From the NCBI GenBank assembly GCA_030654395.1, contig JAURXM010000131.1, positions 496,001 through 560,000 on the forward strand: a stretch of 64,000 nucleotides of DNA. Direction: 5' to 3'. Positions 10,083 through 18,571 of the stretch are shown one piece after another (position 1 is the first letter of the stretch; each line of letters starts with the position of its first letter). The translations under genes and the position numbers were made by a program. The stretch comes from Aquabacterium sp. Lineage in GTDB: Bacteria; Pseudomonadota; Gammaproteobacteria; Burkholderiales; Burkholderiaceae_C. The notes beneath the pieces are model-generated. The model did not search any database. It saw only the letters and a program-made list of their open reading frames with translations, and had not been told where the DNA came from.

Positions 10083-11002
10083 AGCAGCTCAAACGGGCTG
10101 CAGGTAATTTGTCAGCTGCGTGGCTGATGGTGTTGGCCACTTTGCTGTTTGCGGCCATGGGCGTGTGCGTCAAAAAGGCGGCGAGCGAGGTCTCTACCGC
10201 TGAAATTGTCTTCTCACGCGGTCTGGTCGGTGCCGTCTTGATTGGCGCTTTGGCTTGGTGGCAAGGGCTGCGCCTGAGGACGCAGGTGCCCATGCTGCAC
10301 TTGTGGCGCGGTTTTGCAGGCGTGTGCGCGCTGAGCCTGTGGTTCTACACGATTGGTCGGCTGCCACTGTCCACCGCGGTGACCTTGAACTACATGTCAT
10401 CAGTCTGGATGGCTGTGTTCTTGCTCTTGCGCCAAATCTGGCGGCGCTGGAGCGGGCGTCACCATCAAGCCATTCCTGTCCCGCTGCTGGCATCCATCTT
10501 GATTGGATTTGTGGGTGTCGCGCTCGTTCTGCGGCCCACCTTGCAACGTGACCAATGGCTTGAAGGCGTATTGGGCTTGGTATCGGGCATGTTGTCAGCT
10601 TGGGCTTATTTGCAAGTGGCCCAATTAGGCCGCGCCGGTGAGCCCGAACACCGTGTGGTGTTTTACTTCTCGCTGTTCGGCACGTTCGCTGGCTTGATCA
10701 TGGGCGCAGGCTTGAGCGTGTCTGGCCATGTCGCTTGGCGCGAACCCAGCCCATCAGTCATGGTTTGGTTGTTGGGCGTAGGCGGGTTTGCCACCTTGGC
10801 GCAACTGGCCATGACGCGTGCTTATGCAAGGGGCCAAGCCTTGGTCATGGCCAGCTTGCAGTATTTGGGCATCGCGCACGCCTTTGTACTGGGGGTGTTT
10901 TTATTTGACGATCCGGTGCACGCATCAGCCATCGCAGGCATGCTTTTGATCATCATGGCCGGCATCCATGCCACCCGCAACAGCGCGGCCATCAAGGACT
11001 GA
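10079..11002 (+). CDS. EamA/DMT-family transporter
   Basis: 307 residues with about ten hydrophobic segments arranged as two EamA repeats, typical of drug/metabolite exporters. The start is a GTG (10079) overlapping the Rieske stop in GTGA, which gives a normal N-terminus; an earlier ATG would lie inside the upstream gene. The substrate cannot be read from sequence. The coupling to the oxygenase is the only clue. The last 11 bp overlap the convergent SCO gene. Confidence 0.88.
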   Translation: MKQLKRAAGNLSAAWLMVLATLLFAAMGVCVKKAASEVSTAEIVFSRGLVGAVLIGALAWWQGLRLRTQVPMLHLWRGFAGVCALSLWFYTIGRLPLSTAVTLNYMSSVWMAVFLLLRQIWRRWSGRHHQAIPVPLLASILIGFVGVALVLRPTLQRDQWLEGVLGLVSGMLSAWAYLQVAQLGRAGEPEHRVVFYFSLFGTFAGLIMGAGLSVSGHVAWREPSPSVMVWLLGVGGFATLAQLAMTRAYARGQALVMASLQYLGIAHAFVLGVFLFDDPVHASAIAGMLLIIMAGIHATRNSAAIKD

Positions 11003-11594
11003 GTTTGATGAGGCCCGTCAGCATACCGACGACCTGCTCCGCAGGCGGGAAGTCCACCGTGCGCATCGCCAAGCGGCCCTGCTTGTCGAACACGTAGACT
11101 TGACCTGTATGCCGATCCGGCCCCGACTGCCCTGACTTGAGGAAGTCGACCCACTTGGGCAAGGCTTCAATGGCTGGGCGAGCAGCCTGCCAACGCGTGC
11201 CTGCTTGACCAAACCGGCCCAGCCACGCAGCCAAAGACTGAGGCGTGTCCGTCAAGGGATCCAAGCTCAAGGACAGCAAGCGCGCTTGTGGCCACGCTGC
11301 CCCCAAGCCGTCCCGCACCGCAGCGAACAAAGCGCCTTGTATAGGGCAAGTCGCACTGCACGTGGTGAACATCATTTGCACGGCAGTGACTTGCCCCGCC
11401 AACACCGCGGACACATCCAAGCGTCGGCCATCGGTCATCTGCAAAGGCAAGCTAGGCGGACGCTGCGGCGGCACAACCCGGCCAGCGAGTTGATGCGCCT
11501 GCGCCGTGGATGAGCCCACCAGTCCGCCACCTAACAAACCCCAACCCAACAAGGCCTGCGTGGCCTCGCGGCGCGTCAAGTTAGACCGTGTCAT
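10992..11594 (-). CDS. SCO1/SenC/PrrC-type copper chaperone, secreted
   Basis: 200 residues with a thioredoxin-like fold. The copper-binding CxxxC motif is C79-SAT-C83 followed by Pro, and the conserved distal histidine is H162 (DRHTGQVYVFD). The N-terminus has twin arginines (TRREATQALLGWG) before a hydrophobic stretch and an Ala-x-Ala site, suggesting export by Tat or Sec. SCO proteins deliver copper to cytochrome oxidase CuA or, in some bacteria, to other copper enzymes. Here it is the third gene of an operon with a predicted copper-radical oxidase and overlaps the preceding cytochrome gene by 4 bp (ATGA). Its client is therefore probably that oxidase; this is inference. Confidence 0.9.
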   Translation of the reverse strand: MTRSNLTRREATQALLGWGLLGGGLVGSSTAQAHQLAGRVVPPQRPPSLPLQMTDGRRLDVSAVLAGQVTAVQMMFTTCSATCPIQGALFAAVRDGLGAAWPQARLLSLSLDPLTDTPQSLAAWLGRFGQAGTRWQAARPAIEALPKWVDFLKSGQSGPDRHTGQVYVFDKQGRLAMRTVDFPPAEQVVGMLTGLIKLSP

Positions 11595-12025
11595 GGCGCC
11601 CTTTCAACCAGAAACACCCACATAGACTGACACTGCGCGTCAGTCACCTCGTACCTTGGCATGCTTTGATTCACCATGACGCCAGCCGGATCAATGCCGT
11701 TGCGCAGCACCTGGCACAAGGCTTTGGCATCAAAATGCGATGCGGGCCCGCCCCGACGCGCCGTGTCAGTCAACAACGACGACGCAGACAAAGTCGGCGC
11801 GAAACCAGGCGCCGCCGCCTTGGCCTGCGTTTGGTGGCAGTTCGAGCAACGCGTCGCCATGTCCGGCAAGACATCATGGTGCCCGACCATGCGTGCCACC
11901 AGCGGGGTATCGCCCGCAAACAGGCGCTGCCCTGCGCGCCATTGTTCAGGCGACACAGCAGGGCCACAGGCCGTCACGCACCACGCGGTCAAGAGCACCG
12001 CGCCCATCCTGTTCAACACACGCAC
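11591..12025 (-). CDS. Small mono-heme cytochrome c lipoprotein
   Basis: About 144 residues from a GTG start at 12025, chosen because GAAGG lies 10 bases upstream; an ATG at 12007 is the alternative. A short basic n-region and hydrophobic stretch end in a lipobox-like VTAC (C20), so it is probably an outer- or inner-membrane lipoprotein. One CxxCH (C60-SN-C63-H64) binds a covalent heme; a methionine in NQSMPRY may be the sixth ligand. It lies 26 bp after the large oxidase-cytochrome gene and overlaps the SCO gene. It may carry electrons from or to the oxidase. I do not recognise a named family. Confidence 0.8.
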   Translation of the reverse strand: MRVLNRMGAVLLTAWCVTACGPAVSPEQWRAGQRLFAGDTPLVARMVGHHDVLPDMATRCSNCHQTQAKAAAPGFAPTLSASSLLTDTARRGGPASHFDAKALCQVLRNGIDPAGVMVNQSMPRYEVTDAQCQSMWVFLVERAP

Positions 12026-12051: not shown

Positions 12052-15000
12052 TCAAGGCAGATAGAGGCGGCTCGTCGGGACGCTTGTGAAGGCGCCACCA
12101 GTTGGCTTTTGCCACGTCAAGCGCATCACGGCACCGCCCGTTGCATCATAGTAATCAATCTTGATCGTATAGCGCTTACCCAACTCCAGTGCGATCGTGC
12201 CGCTGGTGTTGGTGGTCGCACCATGATCCGTCCAGTTGTCGATCAGCAATACGCCGTTAACCCACACCCTGACACCATCGTCGCTGAGTGTCTGGAAGCG
12301 ATACAAGCCCGCCTCCTCTGCCTGGACTGTGCCGGACCACTTGACCACAAAGTTGTCTGCGTTCACCCTAGGGTCTGGGCGAGCCGTTCCCCAGTCGAAA
12401 TTCGGGTTCTCGCCCATGTGGGTCGAGGCCAAATTGAGCGCACCGAACCAGCCCTTGTTGTAGTACTCACCTTTCAAACCCGCGCCCGTGCCAACCGGCA
12501 CCAGCGGGGCCACTGCGCCCTCTGTGCGGTCAATTTGACGCACATACTCGCTCACAGCAGCCAAATCACCGGCGCTCAAAGTCAAGCCAGAATGGGCCTT
12601 GACCGCATCTTCAACCGTGGGCGCCGACCCGTCGTGCAGATACGGTGCCGTAGCCCATACGTCACGCAAGGTGGGCACATCGATGCCGGTCAAGGTGCCA
12701 CCCAAACGCTGGCCACTGCTGGCCTTGATGGTGCCCACGTTGCGCAAGGCACCCGTGGCACTGTCGGTGAAGTCAACGCCGGTATGGCAGCTGATGCACT
12801 GCGCCGCAAACACGGCACGACCCGTTGAGGCTTGCGCCGTCAACGCACCGTCCGCTGCGCGATACGGGCTGAGGCCAAAGTCATTGAGCGACGCCACATA
12901 CGCGGCCAAGGCATCCAGATCAGCACTGACGCCGGTCTTGCGATCACCCAAAGCTTGCTTGCGCGTGCCGGTATTGAATTGGCTGTCCGACATCAGGCCC
13001 GTGCCTTGCGCCAAGGTGCGGATCTGCCCTTCAAAGTCTTGCACCTCGTCAAAATTGCCACTCCAGTGCAGCTTGCCATGCCCACCTGCGCGGCCACGCA
13101 AACTGATGGTGTTGCGCAGGCCTTCACCCATGCCGGTGATGTCCCAAGTGCGGCCATCAGACGCGCCATCGTTGTGGCAAGACGCGCAACTCATGTAGCC
13201 GTCGCGTGCCAAACGGGGGTCACGTGCGTCATAGAACAACTGCTTGCCGATGAACACATTGGCCGGCAATTTCTCAGCCGCCACCGTTTGCTGGATGCTC
13301 ACCAAAGGCACGGAGGCTTCGCCATAGCTGATCAGGCGATCCAAGTTGAACACGCCCACGGACCTGTCCATGAAGTGCTGCACGTACAGCTGTTTGCCAT
13401 CGGCGGACAAGGCCAAGCCTTGCGGTGCACGGCCCACATCAAAGCGGAACAACTCGCGCTTGCCCACGGCGTCCATCACAGCCACATGGCGGCTGGTCTC
13501 TAGCGCCACGAACACATACGCACCAGATGGGTGGTAAATGGCCGCGCTGGCCAACGACGAGTTGTCGTGATCGACACGGCCTGCATAGTCTTCAGACAGT
13601 GTCGTCAAGTCAACGCGTGAAGAAATCGCCCGCACTGTGCTCTCAAAGTTCAGGTTCTGTCCATTGCGCAAGGTGCCGCGCTGGATGTTGTCCTGCTTGG
13701 ATGGCACCCAAGCTGACAAGCCATCCGGCGCGATGGCTGCCGCGCCCAGATAGTTGGGCACGCCACGCGCAGACACGGTGGTGTCCGCCTTGTCACTGTG
13801 CTGCAGCACAACCGTGCGGCTCAAGGTCAAGGTATCAGGATCGATCACCATCAACTCGCCGCCTTGCTTGACGCCATTGACGGCGGTCTGGATGGTGGCC
13901 GTGGCCTCACCAGGCTGCGCACGCGTGATGAAGCGCGATACCAACAATCGGTCCATCGCAGGCGACATGGCCAGATGGCGCGGCGTGCCGCCAACAGACA
14001 AGCTGCCCAACACAGCACCAGCCGCATCCAGCTTGAGCACTTGGCCCTTGGCCTCCAGCGCCACGAAGGCCTGGCCATTGCGACCAAAGATCAGGCCATA
14101 AGGCATGGATGCACGTGGCAGACTGATGGTCTGCACCACAGCCAAGCTGGCGGGGTCAATGACACTGATCGTGGCACTGCCTTTGTTGACCACCCACACA
14201 CGGCCACTTGGTGCGACAGCCACCGAACGGGGTTGTGAGCCCACCGCGACTTCAGCCACTTTCTTCAGCGGGGAAGCGTCAAACACAGCGATGGTGTCCG
14301 TGTCTGGATTGAGCACCCACAGACGGGGCGCCGCACCACTGGCGGACGTCAGCGACAGGCTGCTGGATGCTTTGGCCTGTACGCGGTTGATGTCACCGCC
14401 TACTGCCTGCCAAAAACGCCGAGTGACGTTGGTGCCGCCTGCATCTTGCGCAGTCAATGTCACCTCATAAACCCCTGGGGCTGTGTAGGTGTGCTTGATG
14501 TTGGCGATGTTCGTGAACGCCGTATCAACCGAGCCATCGCCAAACGCCCATTTGTATTGGATGGGGCCCTGACCTGTGACCGTGGCCACATAGCTTGCCT
14601 CAGACCCTGTGATCATTGCAGGCGCCAAAACAGACGACACCACTGGAGGCGGCGCGAGCACAGCCCACGTGAAGCTGCTACTGGCACTGCCACCACGGCC
14701 ATCATTGACACCAATCGTCACATCATAGCTACCGGCCTTACTGGCCAAGCCACTGATGACACCGGACTTGGCGTTGATGAACAAACCCGTTGGCAAACCT
14801 GTTGCGCTGTAAGTCAACACGTCTGCATCGGGGTCACCTGCAGGCACGTTCAACACGGCAACCTCGCCCTCGCGCACCGCAGCTGGCGCCAGCGAAGAGA
14901 TCGTGGGTGGGCGGTTCACGGCCAAGCTGCCGTAGACCTCAACCTCTGCCAAGCTCAGGAAGTTGGTACCGGCCAATTGCACACGCACATAGCGGCCTTT

Positions 15001-17634
15001 GACACCCACACTGATCAAGCTGCTGCGTGGCGCCGTGCCGGGCACCTTCAATCGCCAGACAGCGGTATCGGCCAGCAACTGCGTCAGCGTCTTACCCGTC
15101 ATCGGGGTCTCAGACACCAGCACATAGAAGTTACTCAATCGATCAGCGCAACAATCTGAGCGGTTCCACAAACGCGTCGACTGCACCTGAAAGAGGTTAC
15201 CCAGATCAACGTCCCAAAATGCATTGGCTTCTTGTGCCGTATGCGTCACAGAGCCGTTGCCATGTACGCCATCCACATTGCCATCGACTGCACGGCTGGC
15301 TGACTCGCCGTTGTTGGTCGACGACTGCGAAGCCGTTTTGCCCCGCGCCACGTTGTTGATGTAAACGTCTTTTTCAAGGCCCCAAGCACCAAGATCACCC
15401 AAGTTGCCTTCTGCCGCTGGCGTGCCCCAGTTCACACCGTCAGTGCTGACATAGAAGCGGTACTTGGCGATCGTGCCATTGCCGCCACCTGGTCGTGGCA
15501 TGTAGCGAAACCCACTGACCTTGAACGCGCCACCCAAGTCGACCACAACCCAGTGAGGCAAAACAGGCGTCGCCCCTTGGTACTGGGTATGCCAGAGCGT
15601 ATCGGGCTTGCCATCGATCACATTCGCAACGTTGCCTCCTTCAGCAGTCAGCTCTTGGCTGTCAGCAGACACGCGCCAGTTGCCACGCGATAATGGGCGT
15701 CCCTCCTCGTCCAGCACGTTGAGCTCGGCCATCGAGGTCCACGGGTTGCCAGCTTGCTCAGACAAGGCCTCTAGCTTGACGAAACGAACGGCGCCAGTGC
15801 CGGCCACGTTCCACAAAAACTCGGTGCTGACCGTGGCCACACCATCGCTGACGGACCACTTCACCAAACTGCGCCCCACAGTAGTGCTCACACCACTGAT
15901 GCGGCCTGTCGCTGGGTCAAGCGATAAACCACTTGGCAAACCAGTCGCTTTGAAAATCAAACCGGACGAGCTGGATTTCGCGAGAGGCTGAAGAACGGTG
16001 CTCTCACCCAATACCGAGGACTGATCTGGAACCGGCGTGATCACAGGTGCATTGGTGCCATGAATGCGCACAATCTTGGCCACAGAGGGCACGCCATCCG
16101 CATTCAAGGCGAACAGCATCCACTGACCAGGCAAAGCCCAACCTGGGTTGCTGGGCACATCGACCTCGTAGGTTTTACTGCTGGTCGCTTTGAACGTCAG
16201 GGACAAGCGCCGCTGATCGTTGTTCACTGTGTGGGTGGTAGAGCCCATGCGCACGATGGCAAACGAGCTGACTTCAGAGTCCATCGACACGGCCATCTTG
16301 CTGCCGTACACCGCTGCGGCGGGTGCCGATGCAATCACAGGCCTCGTGGCTGCGCTACCGTCCGTCTTGAAGAGGTAATGCGGACTCAGAATCTGCATAT
16401 CGGCGTGGTTGGCGGCACAACCAGTGCCACACAGCCCCCCCCCAGCAGACATCACCCTGCCGTCAGGCAACAACAGCGCCACGCTGTGATAGTTGCGCGG
16501 CACGCTGATCGCAGGCAAGGTGGTGAAGGTTTCGCTGACTGGGTCAAACAACTCAGGCACCATGACCGCGTTGTCGTCCTTAAAGCCGACCGCATAGGTT
16601 TGGCCACCGATGATGACCACCTGTCCATTTGGCAGCACCACAGAGTTGTGGAACGCACGGCGGTAAGCCATGGGCGCCAACTTACGCACCGACACACCTG
16701 CATTGATGTCTATGACATAGCTGTTGGCGTTGGCATTGGTTGCGTCATAACCCGGCGAGCCTCCCACCTTGAGGATGCGGCCGGTGTCATACATCACCGC
16801 ATTGCCACTGACACTGAACTCGTCATCGCCACGCTTGCCTGCTGGGCTGACGCTGCCTGCGCCTTGCGTGTCGATCCAATGCATGTTCACGCCGGTGCCC
16901 GCATAAAACACCTTGCCATTGCCTGCAGGCAAGAGCCAAAAGTGGCTGTCTCCGCCAAAAGTGGGGCGTGAGGCATCAACCGACAAAAACGGATCAATCG
17001 GCACGCCATCCAACTTGCGCCAGCCCAGCCCCTCGGTCCAGACCTCCCCTTGCCGGTTGGCTGCTGGCCCTGACCATGACCCACCCAGCGTGAACACCGA
17101 GCCATCTTGCAAGATGGTGTTGGCCTGATAGGCCCGCGGAACCTTCATGAGGTCACTGCGCGTCCACGTGCCCAGCTTGCTGTCAAAAATACTGGTCAAG
17201 GCATTGCTGATGCCACCATTGACCAACAAGCGTCCATCCGCCAAATTAGTCGTACCTGGGCAGAACATATCGTGCCCGGTCTCAGACACCAGACGCTCAG
17301 CGATCGCACCCGTCAGTGGGTTGTACAAGGCCGAATACGTATTACCGGCTGCATTGCCGCCAAAAGAGAACCGATCATCTGCCGACCAAAACAGCACCGT
17401 ACCATCTGGCAAATTGGCTGCTGACACAGGCACCAGCGGTAAAGCAATCGGCGCGCCCCAACGTGACATGGAAACGGGGGAGACGGCCAATGCAGACGCC
17501 CTGCCCAAGCCGTAAGGATGAGCCGAGTCCACTGCGCCACTGCCTGATGCTGTTGACGCGTCGCCACTGCCGCCGCCACAACCCGATATCAAAGACGCGC
17601 CCAAGAGAGACGCTATCAGTAAAGCTTTTTTCAT
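12052..17634 (-). CDS. Multidomain lipoprotein: galactose-oxidase-like copper-radical oxidase fused to di-heme cytochrome c and PA14
   Basis: 1,860 residues from the ATG at 17634 (MKKALLIASL...LISGC, lipobox Cys19). Domains in order: kelch/galactose-oxidase propeller (about 55-425) and its C-terminal DUF1929 domain (425-525); Ig-like putative domain (530-612); two F5/8C discoidin-like regions (615-765, 762-905); a second Ig-like domain (907-995); PKD (1000-1080); YVTN-type propeller (1100-1440); cytochrome-c-peroxidase-like di-heme module with CxxCH at C1483-H1487 and C1613-H1617 plus the APYLHDGS motif (1440-1705); PA14 (1718-1860). All galactose oxidase active-site residues are recognisable: C125 (MFCPG), Y169 (RAYQ), W187 (GGSWSG), Y382-H383 (RNYHS) and H468 (THTVN). 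It is presumably exported and oxidises a primary alcohol or aldehyde, perhaps on a polysaccharide. First gene of an operon with a cytochrome and a SCO chaperone. Confidence 0.88.
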   Translation of the reverse strand: MKKALLIASLLGASLISGCGGGSGDASTASGSGAVDSAHPYGLGRASALAVSPVSMSRWGAPIALPLVPVSAANLPDGTVLFWSADDRFSFGGNAAGNTYSALYNPLTGAIAERLVSETGHDMFCPGTTNLADGRLLVNGGISNALTSIFDSKLGTWTRSDLMKVPRAYQANTILQDGSVFTLGGSWSGPAANRQGEVWTEGLGWRKLDGVPIDPFLSVDASRPTFGGDSHFWLLPAGNGKVFYAGTGVNMHWIDTQGAGSVSPAGKRGDDEFSVSGNAVMYDTGRILKVGGSPGYDATNANANSYVIDINAGVSVRKLAPMAYRRAFHNSVVLPNGQVVIIGGQTYAVGFKDDNAVMVPELFDPVSETFTTLPAISVPRNYHSVALLLPDGRVMSAGGGLCGTGCAANHADMQILSPHYLFKTDGSAATRPVIASAPAAAVYGSKMAVSMDSEVSSFAIVRMGSTTHTVNNDQRRLSLTFKATSSKTYEVDVPSNPGWALPGQWMLFALNADGVPSVAKIVRIHGTNAPVITPVPDQSSVLGESTVLQPLAKSSSSGLIFKATGLPSGLSLDPATGRISGVSTTVGRSLVKWSVSDGVATVSTEFLWNVAGTGAVRFVKLEALSEQAGNPWTSMAELNVLDEEGRPLSRGNWRVSADSQELTAEGGNVANVIDGKPDTLWHTQYQGATPVLPHWVVVDLGGAFKVSGFRYMPRPGGGNGTIAKYRFYVSTDGVNWGTPAAEGNLGDLGAWGLEKDVYINNVARGKTASQSSTNNGESASRAVDGNVDGVHGNGSVTHTAQEANAFWDVDLGNLFQVQSTRLWNRSDCCADRLSNFYVLVSETPMTGKTLTQLLADTAVWRLKVPGTAPRSSLISVGVKGRYVRVQLAGTNFLSLAEVEVYGSLAVNRPPTISSLAPAAVREGEVAVLNVPAGDPDADVLTYSATGLPTGLFINAKSGVISGLASKAGSYDVTIGVNDGRGGSASSSFTWAVLAPPPVVSSVLAPAMITGSEASYVATVTGQGPIQYKWAFGDGSVDTAFTNIANIKHTYTAPGVYEVTLTAQDAGGTNVTRRFWQAVGGDINRVQAKASSSLSLTSASGAAPRLWVLNPDTDTIAVFDASPLKKVAEVAVGSQPRSVAVAPSGRVWVVNKGSATISVIDPASLAVVQTISLPRASMPYGLIFGRNGQAFVALEAKGQVLKLDAAGAVLGSLSVGGTPRHLAMSPAMDRLLVSRFITRAQPGEATATIQTAVNGVKQGGELMVIDPDTLTLSRTVVLQHSDKADTTVSARGVPNYLGAAAIAPDGLSAWVPSKQDNIQRGTLRNGQNLNFESTVRAISSRVDLTTLSEDYAGRVDHDNSSLASAAIYHPSGAYVFVALETSRHVAVMDAVGKRELFRFDVGRAPQGLALSADGKQLYVQHFMDRSVGVFNLDRLISYGEASVPLVSIQQTVAAEKLPANVFIGKQLFYDARDPRLARDGYMSCASCHNDGASDGRTWDITGMGEGLRNTISLRGRAGGHGKLHWSGNFDEVQDFEGQIRTLAQGTGLMSDSQFNTGTRKQALGDRKTGVSADLDALAAYVASLNDFGLSPYRAADGALTAQASTGRAVFAAQCISCHTGVDFTDSATGALRNVGTIKASSGQRLGGTLTGIDVPTLRDVWATAPYLHDGSAPTVEDAVKAHSGLTLSAGDLAAVSEYVRQIDRTEGAVAPLVPVGTGAGLKGEYYNKGWFGALNLASTHMGENPNFDWGTARPDPRVNADNFVVKWSGTVQAEEAGLYRFQTLSDDGVRVWVNGVLLIDNWTDHGATTNTSGTIALELGKRYTIKIDYYDATGGAVMRLTWQKPTGGAFTSVPTSRLYLP

Positions 17635-17797: not shown

Positions 17798-18571
17798 TCA
17801 CTCATGGAGGGTGTGCACGATCAGACCGATCATCACCAAGCCGGCTGCCAACCAAAAAATTTGCAAAACTGTATCGCGACGGTTCAATCTCTTTTGCAAT
17901 TGCGGGATCAAATCGGCCACAGCCACATAGATAAAGCTGCTGGCCGCTACAACCATCATGTAGGGCAAGAAATCCTGCCACGGCTCGATCAGGAAGTAGC
18001 CCAGCACGCCACCAACCACCGCAGCCATGCCCGAAATCATGTTGTAGACCAAGGCCCGCATACGCGATAAGCCCGCATTGATCAACACAATGTAGTCACC
18101 CACCTCTTGCGGGATTTCGTGGGCAATGATGGCCAGAGACGTCACGAAGCCCAATTGAGGGTCGGTCAAAAAAGCGGCCGCGATCAACACCCCATCACAA
18201 AAGTTGTGGATGCTGTCCCCTACCAACACGCTCCAGCCTCCACGACCAGCCTGCTCGGCATCAAACCCATGGTGATGGTGATGGTCGTCATGCTCGTGGT
18301 GATGGCCATGGCGATACAACTCGGTTTTCTCCAAGAAGAAGAAAAATAGCAAACCACCTAGCAAGGTCAAAAACAAACTCTGTGGCGTCTTGGCCGACTC
18401 AAACGCCTCCGGCAAGACATGCAACAGCGCTGTGCCCAGGAGTACACCGGTTGAAAAACTCACCAAATGGCGAACGAGCAAGCCCAGCAAGGGGGCCGAC
18501 AGTGCTGCAGCCAGCACCACAGAGACCACGCCACCCACAAAGGTAGCGGTCACGATGTAAATCAGGGTCAT
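17798..18571 (-). CDS. ZIP-family divalent metal transporter
   Basis: 257 residues with about eight membrane helices. A histidine-rich cytoplasmic loop (about residues 88-101, GHHHEHDDHHHHHG) separates the third and fourth helices. Metal-site motifs are DSIHNFCDG in helix 4 and IAHEIPQEVGD in helix 5, the ZIP signature. ZIP proteins import zinc, iron or manganese into the cytoplasm; the ion cannot be decided here. It is transcribed toward the oxidase operon but 163 bp separate them, a stretch with G-rich runs and no clear terminator. It is divergent from the Ppx/GppA gene, 49 bp apart. Confidence 0.9.
   Translation of the reverse strand: MTLIYIVTATFVGGVVSVVLAAALSAPLLGLLVRHLVSFSTGVLLGTALLHVLPEAFESAKTPQSLFLTLLGGLLFFFFLEKTELYRHGHHHEHDDHHHHHGFDAEQAGRGGWSVLVGDSIHNFCDGVLIAAAFLTDPQLGFVTSLAIIAHEIPQEVGDYIVLINAGLSRMRALVYNMISGMAAVVGGVLGYFLIEPWQDFLPYMMVVAASSFIYVAVADLIPQLQKRLNRRDTVLQIFWLAAGLVMIGLIVHTLHE

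Follow-up and report, generated by a model that had tools for sequence, protein, structure and literature searches.

It is not settled how copper radical oxidases (CROs), the galactose oxidase family, attain their radical state in nature and hold on to it; assays in vitro supply horseradish peroxidase to obtain full activity, as stated in a study of a fungal enzyme pair (PMC9770985). The window, a stretch of 64,000 nucleotides of Aquabacterium sp. DNA, raises this question through a single gene that encodes both a CRO and a two-heme module. What could the hemes do for the oxidase?

Domain organization of the fusion protein

The minus-strand translation of 12052-17634 runs from ATG to stop over 1,860 residues with zero internal stops, and is arranged as follows:

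12052..17634 (-): whole gene, a 1,860-residue lipoprotein with CRO, Ig-like, two discoidin, Ig-like, PKD, propeller, diheme and PA14 domains
17578..17634 (-): signal peptide and lipobox (ISGC, Cys19; residue +2 is Gly), residues 1-19
16063..17499 (-): CRO (AA5-type) domain, residues 46-524
16063..16344 (-): galactose-oxidase-like early set domain (Pfam GO-like_E_set), residues 431-524
15796..16035 (-): first He_PIG Ig-like domain (PF05345), about residues 534-613, limits estimated
15364..15795 (-): first discoidin (F5/8 type C) domain, about residues 614-757
14920..15357 (-): second discoidin (F5/8 type C) domain, about residues 760-905
14659..14910 (-): second He_PIG Ig-like domain (PF05345), residues 909-992
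14425..14598 (-): PKD domain, residues 1013-1070
13315..14349 (-): seven-bladed YVTN-type β-propeller, about residues 1096-1440
12535..13272 (-): diheme domain of the bCCP/MauG/hydrazine synthase γ superfamily, about residues 1455-1700
13174..13188 (-): heme I motif CASCH, residues 1483-1487
12784..12798 (-): heme II motif CISCH, residues 1613-1617
12592..12594 (-): His1681, candidate distal ligand of heme II
12061..12480 (-): PA14 domain, residues 1719-1858

Pfam matches above cut-off were obtained for GO-like_E_set, Kelch_6, F5/8 type C (two stretches), He_PIG (two) and PKD, and, in the C-terminal part, for CCP_MauG (40.5 bits, cut-off 25.6), RoxA-like_Cyt-c, YNCE and PA14. Together with PDB matches, these confirm the one-chain domain combination that had been proposed from the sequence by the first-pass annotation. 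A read error splitting the frame, which that annotation had named as a possible flaw, is ruled out by nine relatives from other genomes that align over the full length with 48-67% identity, and by a relative that covers 82% of the query with 55.7% identity and is carried by a Comamonadaceae leaf isolate on a plasmid whose record is marked complete.

The ISGC motif with Cys19 is one that we take to be a lipobox by the general lipobox rule, and Cys19 is invariant in all 10 aligned rows (the window protein and its nine relatives). The protein is probably anchored in the outer membrane. The surface location suggested earlier is consistent with the results. Domains of carbohydrate-binding type surround both the CRO and the propeller-diheme module.

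The copper and heme sites

Residues 46-524 match the galactose oxidase structure PDB 9g43_A with an E-value of 5.7e-158, and residues 47-524 match PDB 1gof with 2.1e-133. C125 and Y169 (the cross-link pair), W187 (stacking) and Y382, H383 and H468 (the copper site) align with the homologous positions of galactose oxidase, so that all six residues, as well as the CxxCH motifs at 1483 and 1613, are as first read. The Kelch propeller and early-set domain of the AA5 family, in the galactose oxidase fold, are both present. The window protein shares with the AA5 CROs (1gof; 9g43; GlxA 4unm) the fold, the early-set domain, the Cys and Tyr of the cross-link, the stacking Trp, both copper Tyr and both His, and differs from the known members in its fused propeller-diheme module, its lipoprotein anchor and the lack of the galactose-binding Arg.

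The cross-link Cys and Tyr and the copper Tyr, His and His are kept in 93/93 aligned CRO domains, fused or standalone. The column of the stacking Trp187 is more variable: it is Trp in 37 of the 42 fused rows whose best query is the window's CRO, and is not Trp in the fused rows of the B groups (see below), where a Trp precedes the cross-link Tyr (RWY), an arrangement that we take to be like that of GlxA and the glyoxal oxidases. The galactose-binding Arg of fungal galactose oxidase, presumably R330, is replaced by Gly227 in the window protein according to the alignment with 1t2x. Therefore, "galactose oxidase" denotes here a fold and a chemistry, not a substrate, and galactose, which had been proposed for assay, is not supported as the substrate of the window protein; the surface polysaccharide that had been suggested would be a candidate only. 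As the Gly227 column is mixed among the 42 fused relatives of the window's CRO type (Gly in 16, Arg in 12, various residues in the others), the substrate range probably varies among them.

The best structural match of the second propeller is the β subunit of hydrazine synthase, level with one other propeller. A β-type seven-bladed propeller ahead of a diheme domain is also the arrangement of hydrazine synthase β-γ and its non-anammox homologues (5c2v; PMC12758564), and the heme part resembles both hydrazine synthase γ and the bacterial cytochrome c peroxidases. Unlike hydrazine synthase γ, the module has Trp1524 in the place of γ-His144 (a correspondence taken from PMC12758564) and lacks the third heme-binding Cys (γ-Cys165); the only cysteines between residue 1096 and the C-terminus are those of the two CxxCH motifs. 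It also differs in having a CRO in the same chain and in scoring far under the NCBIfam hydrazine synthase cut-off (65 bits vs 1250), and an α-subunit gene was not noticed by eye beside it. The heme part is probably closer to the hydrazine synthase β-γ type than to the plain cytochrome c peroxidases whose motif the first-pass annotation pointed out.

The module shares two CxxCH motifs, the CCP_MauG domain, the APYLHDG motif, the interheme Trp and the distal Gln with diheme cytochrome c peroxidase, MauG, MbnH and BthA. It differs from them in that the distal Pro and Glu have no counterpart, and in that the candidate distal residue at heme II is His rather than Met or Tyr. In a comparison with nine diheme genes, eight of them peroxidase-type by eye and one more distant (hhalign probability 99.9%), the interheme Trp, the distal Gln (with Gln1537) and the heme II ligand Met (with His1681) fell in register. 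The distal Pro of bCCP, MauG and BthA aligns with Leu1541, which is Leu or Phe (54/15) in the 69 CRO-fused modules. For their distal Glu no counterpart was found, as hhalign places it in a stretch that is absent from the module; an ungapped count from the Gln leads to Leu1547, which is Leu in 69/69.

Conservation around the hemes is high. Trp1524 is Trp in 76/76 modules (69 fused to a CRO and 7 without one), His1523, Trp1524, Glu1535 and Gln1537 are invariant in all 69 CRO-fused modules, His1681 is His in 68 of these, and both heme motifs read CxxCH in 67. Two B1 fusions (L113 and L119) have a heme II motif with one extra residue (C-x3-CH). The distal Glu is common to bCCP, MauG and BthA, and its loss in BthA impairs peroxidase activity (PMC6405878). 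Speculatively, Glu1535, located two residues ahead of the Gln, might substitute for it. Heme II is probably bis-His, judging from the sequence. Since the canonical Glu is absent and heme II is probably bis-His, the diheme domain is not a textbook peroxidase. The earlier suggestion that the heme module handles H2O2 or electrons is consistent with these features, whereas a plain cytochrome c peroxidase is not, given the missing distal Pro and Glu.

Distribution, partner genes and history of the pairing

A scan of one genome per species across 84,980 species returned 458 relatives, and the best 80 of the 458 gave 78 loci, several of which are the same contigs as genomes sampled separately. Among these 78 loci, the same chain occurs in public genomes of Betaproteobacteria, other Proteobacteria and Verrucomicrobia; carriers include Sphaerotilus natans ATCC 13338, Aquabacterium parvum, Undibacterium, Rhizobacter, Azohydromonas, Paraburkholderia ribeironis, Steroidobacter agaridevorans, Methylobrevis albus and several Verrucomicrobia. 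A CRO lies within the locus in 76/78, and with few exceptions one ORF holds both it and the heme module; these shares are not a prevalence because the loci are those most like a fused query. Only the CRO tail is on the contig in L093 and L145, and the two loci without a CRO (L135, L151) are short contigs. By best-matching CRO query, the 76 loci divide into group A (45; galactose-oxidase-like CRO, the window's type), B1 (19), B2 (7) and a Verrucomicrobia set (5). The CRO-diheme genes of L066, L070 and L107 are split over two ORFs, through frame breaks or real splits; in L107 it is the module itself that is broken, and L102 is cut by the contig end.

At class level, 19/369 genomes matched at E 1e-30 or better; outside the window's family, fusions were recognized in G587 (two) and G442, a module without a CRO in G652 and G748, and a CRO without a module in G691. 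Within the family, 14/150 genomes have a GO-like_E_set match, with 26 matches in all, 14 of them in open frames of at least 1,300 residues, the hemes having been checked in some. The window's genome has a second CRO-propeller-diheme-PA14 protein (L036:8360-13135, G000:C52) of 1,591 residues with another CRO type and a Sco-like gene directly upstream, and a standalone CRO on another contig (L037:8419-9969). At L059:4798-12462, one protein of 2,554 residues carries a CRO and two propeller-diheme modules (four CxxCH).

The first-pass annotation knew of no described enzyme with this combination. Our literature search for a single-chain protein with a CRO and a hydrazine-synthase-like diheme module likewise gave no description among the matches listed. 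The combination is not a one-off: numerous species have it, and more than one CRO lineage carries the module. CROs, diheme enzymes, the Sco partnership and CRO-peroxidase cooperation are already known. From the title of a 2023 reference by Mazurkewich, an AA5 enzyme is reportedly fused to a CE3 domain.

Two genes lie directly downstream on the same strand in the window:

11591..12007 (-): monoheme cytochrome c lipoprotein (CSNCH), probably translated from the ATG at 12007 (12115 in the mechanical ORF)
10992..11594 (-): SCO1/SenC-type copper chaperone (CSATC), with a 4-base overlap with the cytochrome ORF

The cytochrome matches PF00034 (22.0 bits, cut-off 21.3) and the chaperone SCO1/SenC (46.5 bits, cut-off 22.8). 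By eye, the Sco protein has a twin-arginine-like signal at its start (TRREATQALLG), and the next same-strand gene upstream of the fusion (17798-18571) encodes a putative ZIP-type metal transporter. The same three-gene order is found on the leaf-isolate plasmid, where the genes are annotated "discoidin domain-containing protein", "hypothetical protein" and "SCO family protein" (the middle gene being placed by this annotation). Genes annotated as protocatechuate 3,4-dioxygenase lie near the CRO operon of that plasmid (L192:12612-13977), a weak hint at aromatic plant compounds.

Sco and cytochrome genes were sought across each whole locus, with 7 kb flanks where the contig allowed. Group A has Sco in 40/45 loci, the cytochrome in 39/45 and both in 39/45, and among the six loci that lack the pair, three (L102, L106 and L115) have genes that reach the end of their contig. 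The partners are placed downstream, upstream or divergently, and in the 39 loci with both, Sco lies within 924 bases and the cytochrome within 773 bases of the CRO gene. B2 has Sco in 6/7 and the cytochrome in 0/7; B1 has Sco in 5/19 and the cytochrome in 0/19, 14 of its 19 loci having neither partner. The Verrucomicrobia set has Sco in 0/5 and the cytochrome in 0/5 in this whole-locus search. Copper supply is the most frequent partner theme around the CRO fusions. A group-A CRO without a heme module (L169:182-3259) has the same cytochrome c and Sco neighbors; the cytochrome might thus be a partner of the CRO or of Sco instead of the hemes.

Other copper-related diheme genes were seen beside some fusions. 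An MbnP-MbnH fusion gene lies directly upstream of two Verrucomicrobia CRO-diheme fusions (L142:1251-3065 and L146:6143-7909), as a second copper-related diheme enzyme in the cluster; none was seen in L144, L149 and L153. An MbnH-like diheme gene with two CxxCH (L182:7755-8987) adjoins the fusion of G442.

Stretches shorter than 400 residues and duplicates were removed first, and an 85% identity filter then took the 116 remaining CRO domains down to 93 (72 fused and 21 standalone, of which L066 is probably a split fusion, as the next ORF holds its heme module). On the resulting tree, the fused/standalone label needs at least 6 changes, 5 of them forced by starred branches, compared to a mean of 19.1 in label shuffles, 0/500 of which were as low as 6; this tree and that of the modules are "quick" searches without a mixture model, with weak deepest splits and with two long branches (L174, L177) that meet. 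On the tree of the 76 modules, A, B1 and B2 fall in one supported set (99, starred). For the 69 loci present on both trees, two members of A are on average 0.91 apart by CRO and 0.90 apart by module. A member of A and one of B1 are 2.71 apart by CRO and 1.02 by module, and for A and B2 the mean tree distances are 2.77 and 0.96. As closely related modules sit on distant CRO lineages, the two parts probably met on more than one occasion. Rates are equal inside a group, whereas distances from group to group are not, and this suggests that a module younger than the CRO lineages was attached to these or passed between them. A possible alternative history is a single old fusion whose CRO part later changed fast or was replaced; against it, a clade of standalone CROs sits among the B groups on the CRO tree.

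We take the repeated pairing as the strongest sign of a joint function of CRO and module. A counterargument is that the propeller-diheme module also occurs without a CRO (L071-L075, L157, L158). In the two loci searched among L071-L075 (L071 and L073), its fusion partners are LamG, Big_5 and ricin-B lectin domains; the N-terminal region of the L071 protein had zero PDB sequence matches.

Possible roles of the heme partner

The intact copper-tyrosyl-radical site and the intact two-heme module on a hydrazine-synthase-β-like propeller lead us to a reading that we favor tentatively, giving it slightly less than half of our confidence: the protein would be a surface-binding CRO to which a heme redox partner is tethered, and this partner would take up H2O2 and keep the copper-tyrosyl radical active. 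Sco would load the CRO with copper. The CRO would oxidize a primary alcohol or aldehyde of a surface-bound substrate, probably not specifically galactose, and yield H2O2, with which the diheme module could react at heme I. Heme II, probably bis-His, may relay electrons together with the lipoprotein cytochrome c, and one-electron exchange by the module would hold the CRO in the active Cu(II)-radical form. In this reading, removal of peroxide and reactivation of the CRO would be two outcomes of one redox partner, and the data fit either.

The conservation of the copper and cross-link residues (93/93), of Trp1524, Glu1535 and Gln1537 (69/69) and of both CxxCH motifs (67/69), the repeated pairing of CRO and module, and the presence of Sco and the monoheme cytochrome c at 39/45 group-A loci, support the tethered-partner reading. 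So do three precedents. A fungal heme peroxidase activates a neighboring CRO, with EPR supporting one-electron oxidation (PMC9770985). In Streptomyces, the CRO GlxA requires both Sco and the heme peroxidase DtpA to mature when copper is limiting, and with GlxA, DtpA behaves as a peroxidase (PMC4736821). For hydrazine synthase, heme γ-II is proposed to pass cytochrome c electrons to heme γ-I (PMC12607021). Like the fungal AlcOx-peroxidase tandem and the Streptomyces GlxA-DtpA-Sco system, the window pairs a CRO with a heme partner, and it shares Sco as a further partner with the latter. In contrast, the fungal and Streptomyces heme enzymes described there are separate proteins of other families, whereas the window's is a diheme domain of the same chain. 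By analogy with these precedents, oxidative activation or maturation of the CRO by the heme partner would be a third role, beyond the peroxide removal and electron uptake that the first-pass annotation had proposed.

Several observations count against the tethered-partner reading. The distal Glu has no counterpart and the distal Pro falls on Leu1541. The predicted structure of the CRO-plus-module part of a relative (pTM 0.62, linker poorly predicted) had no fixed CRO-heme contact. B1 and B2 have no cytochrome c match in the locus (0/26), the module exists without a CRO, and the L169 CRO keeps cytochrome and Sco without a module. A broader formulation, to which we attach somewhat lower confidence although it is possible, is a self-sustaining copper-radical enzyme, whose diheme unit would use H2O2 or cytochrome c to make and restore the radical, or would send electrons from the CRO to the respiratory chain.

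The absent peroxidase Glu, the probable bis-His heme II and the adjoining cytochrome c fit electron transfer better than peroxide cleavage, and would suit a cytochrome-linked CRO dehydrogenase, in which the two electrons of the reduced CRO pass through the hemes and cytochrome c to the respiratory chain instead of to O2. We regard this alternative as unlikely: the copper and radical residues of the CRO are all kept, the relative's model has no fixed CRO-heme arrangement, B1 and B2 have no cytochrome neighbor, and that neighbor remains at L169 where the module is absent.

More doubtful still are two uncoupled catalytic modules that act on one surface substrate, the CRO making aldehydes and the diheme domain performing RoxA-like oxygenase or oxidase chemistry. 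The many binding domains do suggest a polymer substrate, the poorly predicted linker is possibly flexible, CRO-less modules fused to lectin domains occur, and the RoxA-like_Cyt-c stretch is above its Pfam cut-off. However, the RoxB and RoxC models gave no full-length match, covering ∼30 residues with 20-23 bits against a cut-off of 900, and a module that is paired with several CRO lineages more likely has a role tied to the CRO.

A role in maturation only, in which the diheme domain forms the Cys-Tyr cross-link or oxidizes copper at assembly in a MauG/MbnH-like manner and is later idle, is improbable: the module scores with the MauG and MbnH models, although under their cut-offs, MbnP-MbnH fusions are directly upstream in 2/5 Verrucomicrobia loci and DtpA is required for GlxA maturation, but the work on GlxA also reports that the purified apoenzyme cross-links upon copper addition (PMC4736821), the Glu required for bis-Fe(IV) chemistry in BthA (PMC6405878) is without counterpart here, and a permanent covalent maturase for a single event would be unusual.

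If the self-sustaining reading is true, these proteins would be a class of heme-coupled CROs for which O2 is not the sole partner, and a bacterial single-chain answer to CRO activation in vivo. A natural CRO-diheme protein in one chain in the cultured Sphaerotilus natans and Aquabacterium parvum opens the activation question to mutagenesis, and the fusion is a lead for self-activating oxidase catalysts. It also suggests a role for the hydrazine-synthase-like module, which is prevalent in environmental bacteria according to a 2025 study (PMC12758564). In the one annotated record examined, the CRO-diheme protein is annotated only as "discoidin domain-containing protein".
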